A stretch of 64,000 bases of DNA from NCBI GenBank assembly GCA_913775725.1, contig CAJYNG010000009.1, positions 62,001-126,000 of the forward strand. The letters run 5' to 3'. This stretch comes from an uncultured Stenotrophomonas sp. Lineage in GTDB: Bacteria > Pseudomonadota > Gammaproteobacteria > Xanthomonadales > Xanthomonadaceae. A program made the position numbers and the translations under genes. Positions 9,144-61,343 of this stretch are shown one piece after another. Each line of letters begins with the position of its first letter. Position 1 is the first letter of the stretch. The notes under the pieces are model-generated. The model searched no databases. It was not told the DNA's origin and saw nothing but the letters and a program-made list of their open reading frames with translations.

Positions 9144-9491
9144 CAGGGCTGCGCCCTGCACCCGCAGAGGTAACGGCAACAGCTGAAGCAACAGCAACAG
9201 CTGAAGCAACAGCAACAGCGGGCTATCCGTGGGGTGGCGGGGTGGGTCCGGTTGCGGGGGACGCTGCAAGTACCCCTCCGGGGCCCGGCCCAGCCGCTGG
9301 CGGCTGTGCGTTCGGGCGCTTGCGAAGCAGTGCTTCGCAAGCAAAGCGCCCTCACCCATGTAAGCTCGGTCGCCGCATCCATGCGGCTCACGCCCCCGCA
9401 ACTGGACCCACCCCGCCATCCCACGGAATGCACGCTGTTGCTGTTGCTCCGGCTCTTGCACTCGCTTCGGCGGGTGCAGGGCGCAGCCCTG
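9144..9491. repeat. Long nested palindrome, locus A
   Basis: The gap 9032-9501 holds no gene. Outer arms of 22 bp (9144-9165 and 9470-9491) are perfectly complementary. Inner arms of 56 nt (9205-9260 and 9393-9448) match at 51 positions, and two of the mismatches would be G-U pairs in RNA. AGCAAC/AACAGC short tandem repeats form part of the left arm and their complement part of the right. The central 132 nt contains the hairpin GCCGCA-TCCA-TGCGGC (9372-9387) shared with the loci at 49.8-50.2 and 60.8-61.3 kb, plus an extra segment absent from the other copies. It lies between the end of the AraC-type gene and the start of the MBL gene. 9032-9143 is otherwise featureless. Confidence 0.8.
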
Positions 9492-49835: not shown

Positions 49836-50180
49836 GGAGGAGGCGGGGCACCCTGGCCAGGACACGCAAAAGCCCCTCCATGGTGCTCGATGGCGCCATC
49901 CATGGCGCCAACGGTCCTGACCAGGGTGCCCCGCCTCCTCCAGACAGATTCCAGCGGGCGCGGTAGCAGGTCCACCAGAGGGATTGCGCTTGAAAAGCAA
50001 AGAGCCGGGCATTGCCCGGCTCTTTGCTTTTGCTCTTGCTTTCCATTGCCTCCGCGCCGGCGCAGGAAATTGTCGAGCGGGGGTAGGCAGGCCCATGCAG
50101 GACCGTTGGCGCCATGGATGGCGCCATCGAGCCCCCAGGGACGGGTTTACGGCGTGTCCTGCATGGGCCTGCCTACCCGC
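49836..50180. repeat. Long nested palindrome, locus D (two inverted units)
   Basis: Fills most of the 430 bp gap 49794-50223, which has no gene. Unit D1: 28-nt arms 49836-49863 and 49914-49941 (one mismatch) around a 50-nt loop. Unit D2: perfect 23 bp arms 50081-50103 and 50156-50178 around a 52-nt loop, in opposite orientation. Both loops hold TGGCGCCA-TCCA-TGGCGCCA. A central perfect palindrome AAAAGCAAAGAGCCGGGCA (49993-50031) looks like a bidirectional terminator. The sequences between each unit and the centre are also complementary. Confidence 0.85.
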
Positions 50181-60770: not shown

Positions 60771-61343
60771 TTCCAGCCAACGGCACAGCCCCTCGTGGGT
60801 GGAGGGTTGGGTGGGTCGTTGAAAGCAAAAGCTGCGAGTGGGCCGGTCGGGTTGGGTGCGCGGGGGACGCCGTGAATCCGTCCCTGGAGGCTTGGCCGCC
60901 GCATCCATGCGGCGGACACCCCCGGGCACCCAACCCGACCGGCCTCTGACAGATTTCAGTGGTCTGCCACCCACGGAGAAGAAAAAGAAGATCAAAAGCA
61001 AAGGCAGCCTGGCAGGCCGCTTTTTGTAGAGCCGAGCCCACGCTCGGCTGCTTTCCGGTGGGGCCGCGAAGCCGAGCATGGGCTCGGCTCTACAGGAGCA
61101 AGCGCAGCGCGCGACCCGCTTCTGATCTTCTTTTTCTTCTCCGTGGGTGGACGAACCCGGAACCTGTCAGCGGCCGGGTGGATGGGTAGTGCGGGGTGTC
61201 CGCGGCATGGATGCCGCGGCCAAGCCCCCAGGGATGGGTTTACGGCGTCCCCGCACTACCCATCCGCCCGGCCAGCCCCCAGTAATCCAGCATTCCGCGA
61301 TCCGCCCAAATCCACCCACGAGGGGCTGCGCCGTTGGCTGGAA
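60771..61343. repeat. Composite nested palindrome between two convergent genes, loci B and C
   Basis: The 574 bp gap holds no gene. Layers from outside in: IR1 (60771-60803 and 61311-61343, 32 of 33 match) starting TTCCAGCCAACGGC; unit B (arms 60841-60866 and 60919-60944, 25 of 26, 52-nt loop); unit C (arms 61172-61196 and 61249-61273, one wobble, 52-nt loop, opposite orientation); IR2 (60967-60994 and 61123-61150, perfect 28 bp); and a central SMAG pair (61026-61093). IR1 abuts the hybrid-kinase stop codon. Stem sequences of B and C are unlike each other and those at the other loci. Confidence 0.88.
61026..61093. repeat. SMAG-type palindrome pair in the centre of the composite palindrome
   Basis: GTAG at 61026 with stem GAGCCGAGC/GCTCGGCTG, and the inverse ending CTAC at 61090-61093. 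It is the head-to-head pair form. It occupies the very centre of the composite palindrome. Confidence 0.82.

Follow-up and report, generated by a model that had tools for sequence, protein, structure and literature searches.

A structured core shared by miniature mobile elements of Gammaproteobacteria, including Yersinia YPAL/RU-2, in an uncultured Stenotrophomonas sp.

The repeat at positions 60841 to 60944 (element B) of a 64-kb stretch of the genome of an uncultured Stenotrophomonas sp. (the window) is the structured core common to a family of miniature mobile elements in Gammaproteobacteria, to which the Yersinia repeat YPAL/RU-2 also belongs. The core was already known; the other ends, the far wider distribution, the supported structure, the assignment of a folded strand and the two ANGGAN-type loops on it are new. 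It is strongly supported that the element keeps its folded shape while its letters change, and the folded strand is the complement of that on which the repeat was noticed in an initial, sequence-only reading.

Copies in the window

On the folded strand, referred to here as the GGA strand, the element consists of an outer helix of free sequence (P1, approximately 25 to 30 bp), a hairpin adjoining P1 (P3) and a second hairpin (P2). P2 reads GCC-YNC, a loop ANGGAY, GNR, a five-nucleotide bulge UUYAC and GGC. The features of the window are as follows.

60841-60944, minus strand (folded strand): element B; P1 60841-60866 with 60919-60944, P2 60867-60892, P3 60893-60918
61172-61273, plus strand: element C; P1 61172-61196 with 61249-61273, P3 61197-61222, P2 61223-61248
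50077-50182, plus strand: element D2, a complete copy; ends placed by eye; covariance model 101.6 bits
49836-49941, minus strand: element D1; P1 and P3 intact, P2 decayed; ends placed by eye; 75.4 bits
9347-9392, minus strand: fragment with P3 and part of P2 only; 17.6 bits, E 0.044
60771-60803, plus strand: left outer arm of the B..C composite; 33 bp, 97% complementary to 61311-61343
61311-61343, minus strand: right outer arm of the B..C composite, inverted-repeat partner of 60771-60803
61025-61094, no strand: GTAG (SMAG)-REP-like inverted repeat between B and C, a separate family; GTAG seen by eye (PMC3733652)

The limits given for B in the sequence-only reading were exact and match an inverted repeat whose 26-nt arms are 96% complementary, with a single C-C mismatch, around an interior of 52 nt. 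The arms of C (25 nt) are also 96% complementary, and C lies in the opposite orientation to B. Stems described as fully paired are nearly so in B and C, with one mismatch each, but P2 is decayed in D1, and the copy named A, which is probably the fragment at 9347-9392, is no longer a complete element. The loop said to be kept in B, C and D2 is indeed identical in all three: CCGTRAAYCCRTCCCTGG occurs three times in the window with 0 mismatches each, and a search for this pattern with up to 3 mismatches has 0.33 expected occurrences in the window, with three reached by 0 of 100 shuffles. The inner TCCA thought to be invariant holds family-wide as TCC (GGA on the complement), but its final A is not constant. 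Stems are unlike one another in the window copies, as claimed, but many other copies in the genome have common stem sequences and are therefore not all independent; some are plain duplicates with an identical stem.

On the strand of that reading, B folds with -84.5 kcal/mol (z -8.06 versus 200 shuffles), and C has a z of -8.17 versus shuffles. A covariance model built on 80 copies, 3 of these from the window itself, gave four full matches in the window (50084-50175, 61177-61268, 60847-60938 and 49844-49933). Of the terminal features of miniature inverted-repeat transposable elements (MITEs), the composite B..C has only its 33-bp arms. By eye, no target duplication was seen at its ends, and neither B nor C carries a terminal GTAG, the GTAG repeat at 61025-61094 being separate. 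An outer arm resembling that of the composite stands at the corresponding site in several relatives.

Structure and folded strand

The consensus structure was derived from 80 copies aligned on the strand complementary to that originally read, comprising 77 from other loci (of 85 candidates after removal of near duplicates) and the 3 window copies. Paired cells amounted to 92.5% versus 58.4% in shuffled alignments and 37 to 42% for slid structures, and the covariation score was 0.838 versus 0.199 and 0.113 to 0.155, respectively; the structure was chosen from the same 80 sequences, which favors it over the slid versions. Changes on both sides occurred in 33 of 36 pairs across these copies from many Gammaproteobacteria, so that there is strong support for the proposed conserved single-strand structure, in which compensatory changes preserve the pairing. 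The pair closing P3, for example, is C-G in 52 and U-A in 24 of the 80 copies. By eye, one P1 pair at the corresponding site of relatives is G-C (L303), T.C (L297) or T-A (L298), and the base of P2 changes from GCC/GGC to GCG/CGC in another genome (G035). The length of P1 varies little, and its sequence is free.

The initial reading found the structure but on the complement of the strand that folds. Mismatches in P1 on its strand were A.C in 163 cases versus G.T in 22 in other genomes and 52 versus 15 in the own genome (copies with P1 of <14 bp or a core of >75 nt dropped, 263 to 229). An A.C on one strand is a G.T on the complement. Among 129 nonredundant copies read on the GGA strand, G.U outnumbered A.C by 115 to 22, and 65 individual copies leaned toward this strand versus 11 toward the opposite one (P = 1.8e-10). 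This set was reduced from 290 by dropping copies near a locus end, those with P1 of <16 bp or a low stem score, identical sequences and copies with at least 13 of 16 inner P1 letters alike. In 19 of the 80 aligned copies, P3 has tandem G.A pairs, which also need the GGA strand. The G.U excess and the tandem G.A pairs indicate that selection acts on a single strand, which reads GGA in both loops.

G.A and G.G mismatches also exceed their complements on this strand, with part of the G.A at P1 pairs 5 to 9. The GGA strand was the better-folding one in 101 of 129 copies with RNA energies and in 87 of 129 with DNA energies. The mismatch spectrum is compatible with a folded molecule that may be RNA or single-stranded DNA; we infer RNA.

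Copy number and distribution

At least 140 matches to the covariance model of 80 copies (R1) were found among 150 candidates scored in the own genome, where the conserved loop with up to 2 mismatches had 102 matches versus 0 for a reversed control pattern. Most of the 103 sites extracted from 90 loci of this genome and the window have a long variable outer stem around a constant interior, which falls into two subtypes, and at some own-genome sites the inner hairpin is interrupted by another insert. Two recurrent outer modules lie downstream of elements among the own-genome loci listed. One consists of CAGCTTTTGCTGTTGC repeats and a GCAGGGCGCAGCCCTGC hairpin, holding CTGTTG-type six-base repeats, and the other is CCACGAGGGGCTGCGCCGTTGGCTGG.

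A degenerate pattern of the interior matched at least 116 stretches in named genomes, and the matches listed include Marinobacter, Rheinheimera, Microbulbifer, Xanthomonas, Methylotuvimicrobium, Shewanella, Alteromonas and Sodalis, as well as Yersinia similis. Outer stems in these other genomes are mostly long and well paired and differ in sequence. With R1, at least 55 of 274 gammaproteobacterial genomes matched, as did at least 26 of 349 genomes of the phylum, all 26 being Gammaproteobacteria (the number of the 349 outside the class is not given). In these multigenome searches 12 or 15 candidates were scored per genome, so that copy counts are lower bounds and weakly matching genomes may be missed. 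A 60-nt core query had no match in the plasmid and phage collections.

Some genomes hold local arrays. A Saccharophagus metagenome-assembled genome has four tandem copies in one orientation (L100, 3105-3755), in which the P3 stems are A/T-rich and enclose GGGA or GGA, and at least 6 copies lie on one strand within 1.3 kb, spaced approximately 230 bp apart, at G454:C1:94424-95652.

Known relatives

The sequence-only reading did not recognize the family. The core belongs to the described YPAL/RU-2 repeat and to Rfam Ysr224, so the possibility that it matches a known RNA is partly borne out, with a Ysr224 score that is below cutoff here. The 168-nt RU-2/YPAL of Yersinia pestis is printed in Table 1b of PMC2759123, and by eye this printed sequence has the same interior, with the P2 and junction letters and a P3 with a GGA loop. 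CRAGCCYNCANGGAYGNRTTYACGGCGT fits the printed RU-2, again by eye, and the copies in L166, L160 and L177 as well as B, C and D2. The YPAL ends (CTGCTGACAAA and TTTGTCA) are present in the L166 and L160 copies but absent from L177 and from around B, C and D2, and a YPAL-end pattern did no better than chance in the window.

YPAL is described as a mobile, intergenic palindrome with duplications of 3 to 26 bp that may influence how stable upstream transcripts are (PMC2229807); Yersinia genomes other than that of Y. ruckeri are described as having it in abundance (PMC2847712). One Y. similis genome had at least 84 model matches among 150 candidates scored. Like YPAL, the copies are intergenic, with 0 of 166 in genes in other genomes and 4 of 98 in the own genome. 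Unlike YPAL, B, C and D2 have other ends and other P1 sequences, copies in Stenotrophomonas often form outward-facing pairs with GTAG REPs between them, and the duplications of the best-defined units (G249, below) are 9 to 10 bp.

Ysr224 (RF02770) is on record as a Yersinia small RNA (PMC9029176). Its model scored 126.5 bits against a Y. similis copy, and this match carries the core of the element. Against C the score was 42.2 bits (E 3.2e-8; opposite strand, 61193-61293) and against B 21.7 bits (E 0.024), both below the gathering cutoff of 70. The Rfam model lies on the strand opposite to the folded one and has another structure line. At gathering score, Rfam scans gave no match in the whole window and only RNase P and a tRNA in 15 loci of other genomes. 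A literature search for any two of YPAL, Ysr224, the RU-2 repeat and CsrA together found only a review listing Ysr224 and naming CsrA, and in a search on Stenotrophomonas repeats of this kind no title among the matches listed named the element. The GTAG REPs (SMAG) of Stenotrophomonas maltophilia are short and GTAG marked (PMC3733652); like them, the element is a high-copy intergenic palindrome of the same genus, with one SMAG-like repeat between B and C, but it is another sequence family.

Mobile units and their arrangement

A new finding here is that the core is carried by mobile units whose ends differ. In one genome (G249), these units measure 164 to 400 bp and have the ends CAGCAATTCCCARTTTG, and all 33 distinct paired units carry the core (33 distinct sequences; the genome has 287 terminal-repeat matches). 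Exact target duplications flank 24 of the 33 (22 of 9 bp and 2 of 10 bp). This genome thus presents the terminal inverted repeats, target duplication and many copies that define bacterial MITEs. An autonomous transposon behind the unit was not found in 20 stretches of approximately 3 kb, in 6 of which a terminal repeat had no partner inside the stretch; the same listing also has L220, plus L266 and L267, which cover two of these six places in shorter form. The units of G035 have different inverted ends, CTAAATACGTGTTCCGAA, with no duplication seen by eye, and in G067 the unit ends differ again from both.

Copy number and order also vary at the corresponding site of relatives. This site follows one particular gene, and of the 30 genomes of the genus compared, including the own genome, 11 have two copies there, 7 have one, 1 has a stemless core and 11 have none, with two loci cut by a contig end (L301, no copy; L303, one copy); several of the 11 copy-less loci carry unrelated DNA downstream of the gene, so there the place may not correspond. 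The order of the two element types differs between L297 and L306, and some copies have a P3 insert. In L307, where the intergenic region follows a response-regulator gene, a P3 insert links the left half of one element to the right half of the inverted partner, as if recombination or template switching had removed the intervening stretch.

All 30 own-genome loci with two listed copies are outward-facing pairs. Among 28 neighboring pairs of copies up to 400 nt apart at other loci, 19 face outward and 4 inward, and 5 are in tandem.

Position relative to genes

Copies lie between genes, are seldom found in divergent gaps and have no preferred strand. With a Markov gene caller, none of 166 copies in other genomes was inside a called gene. 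Of these, 138 could be placed: 47 between convergent and 14 between divergent genes, 39 sense and 38 antisense to both neighbors, the other 28 being at an edge (short loci and L255-L274 [G249] and L295-L324 [genus] were left out of this count). The 98 own-genome copies comprised 26 convergent, 16 divergent, 22 sense, 27 antisense, 4 inside genes and 3 at an edge; own-genome pairs are symmetric and therefore unable to show a strand preference. Among copies in other genomes with no partner nearby, sense and antisense placements numbered 25 and 24, and convergent and divergent ones 23 and 14. A sense 3' untranslated region element defined by orientation was rejected, given the lack of strand preference. 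Markov callers replaced a first gene caller, which had put 45 of 98 own-genome copies and 27 of 131 others inside spurious open reading frames.

GGA loops and CsrA/RsmA

Both loops are of the ANGGAN type on the GGA strand, with some P3 loops shorter or without the A. The P3 loop has GGA in 128 of 129 copies, most of which were found with DNA patterns from which P3 was absent, and a minority via model R1, which includes P3. The P2 loop was part of the search patterns, so that some of its conservation is a product of the search. In the 80 aligned copies, the pair closing the P3 loop is C-G in 71, the rest of P3 being variable, and the loop starts with A in 72. The two GGA are 19 to 21 nt apart in the 78 measurable copies of these 80, and exactly 20 nt apart in 61 of the 78. 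GGA was predicted to be open (P > 0.5) in 117 of 129 P3 loops and 84 of 129 P2 loops, leaving 45 of 129 P2 sites not open at this threshold, versus 2 of 160 other GGA.

CsrA is described as having a SELEX consensus RUACARGGAUGU and as bridging sites 10 to 63 nt apart, ANGGAN hexaloops are described in RsmE complexes, and most CsrA SELEX hairpins have up to 4 contiguous pairs (PMC7652899). The element has the ANGGAN-type loop closed by C-G and two sites within the bridging distance; its P3, with a 7- to 10-bp stem, is longer than the SELEX hairpins. It resembles hairpins of the CsrB/RsmZ kind in its GGA in a hairpin loop, the ANGGAN motif and two sites approximately 20 nt apart, but differs from them in having only two sites, on a long palindromic mobile element. 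Rfam csrB or rsm families had no match at gathering score in the window or in 15 loci.

csrA was found in 69 of 73 element-bearing genomes checked and in 235 of 274 genomes of the class overall. Among genomes at least 90% complete, it was present in 43 of 44 with the element versus 169 of 192 without (by subtraction; P = 0.056), and one draft genome with the element (G196, 98% complete) had no csrA match. This co-occurrence is compatible with a role of CsrA but not decisive.

P3 is also a place of insertion. Several Stenotrophomonas copies (L296, L310, L012, L109 and others) have an insert of at least one hairpin in the P3 loop, with loops CAGGACG and CAGGACAG on the GGA strand, again containing GGA. 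In G249 units (L255, L257-L264, L268 and L269), P3 of many copies is enlarged by further hairpins, including the module CGCCAAGGATGGCGTGAATGCAG...GCAGGAGC, whose GGA loops are mostly on the strand opposite to those of the core.

Possible functions

We tentatively propose, at a little short of even confidence, that the transcribed GGA strand is a candidate two-site CsrA/RsmA ligand on a protective helix, acting as a stabilizing tail or decoy. The family spreads inside mobile units with different ends and settles between genes. Two ANGGAN-type loops approximately 20 nt apart would form a putative double site for one CsrA/RsmA dimer, and the long outer helix P1 may protect the transcript. Each transcribed copy could then serve as a CsrA-bound tail or decoy, stabilizing its own transcript, and >100 copies together might draw on the free CsrA pool. 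Where copies form outward-facing pairs, transcripts arriving from both directions would meet a CsrA site. Since sense and antisense placements of the GGA strand are about equally frequent, many copies would be unable to act in the transcript of the upstream gene.

Alternatively, the element may simply be a stabilizer of mRNA 3' ends or a terminator-like hairpin, with P1 blocking exonucleases in either orientation and the core merely capping it. The absence of genic copies in other genomes (0 of 166), the 47 convergent versus 14 divergent placements, the possible influence of YPAL on upstream transcript stability (PMC2229807) and the naming of palindromic repeats as mRNA stability determinants in Yersiniae (PMC2267715) fit such a role; we nevertheless regard it as somewhat unlikely, since it leaves unexplained the sequence conservation of two loops, bulge and junction and the strand-specific G-U excess. 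The conserved core would be without a role if the 25- to 30-bp helix were an RNase III site, a double-strand substrate through which transcripts are trimmed or opened. The nearly constant length and free sequence of the helix and the description of Neisseria NEMIS repeats as RNase III substrates (PMC2229807) speak for this highly improbable reading.

A single-stranded DNA hairpin for mobilization or replication, recognized, e.g., by a nuclease or transposase, would account for mobility in several genomes and for the lack of a preferred strand relative to genes. It also agrees with the surplus of G.A and G.G mismatches over their complements and with the better folding of the GGA strand under DNA energies as well (87 of 129), but the difference between the strands is somewhat larger with RNA energies (101 of 129), and the G249 unit, with terminal inverted repeats and 9- to 10-bp duplications, looks transposase moved. 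Transposases that leave terminal inverted repeats and such duplications need no internal hairpin. We consider a DNA hairpin distinctly unlikely.

Returning to the two-site CsrA/RsmA ligand, a broader version can be envisaged, which we regard as rather unlikely: a Gammaproteobacteria-wide mobile decoy network, in which unrelated miniature transposons took up or kept the same two-site RNA and transposition adjusts the free regulator. If so, further sites could be gained through nested P3 inserts that bring GGA loops.

One family now joins the Yersinia repeat, an Rfam small RNA family and repeats of Stenotrophomonas, Xanthomonas, Marinobacter, Methylotuvimicrobium and others. If CsrA does not bind the element, a conserved RNA or DNA fold remains, which travels in mobile units whose ends are unrelated; if CsrA does bind it, a global regulator would have its level set by mobile elements across many species.
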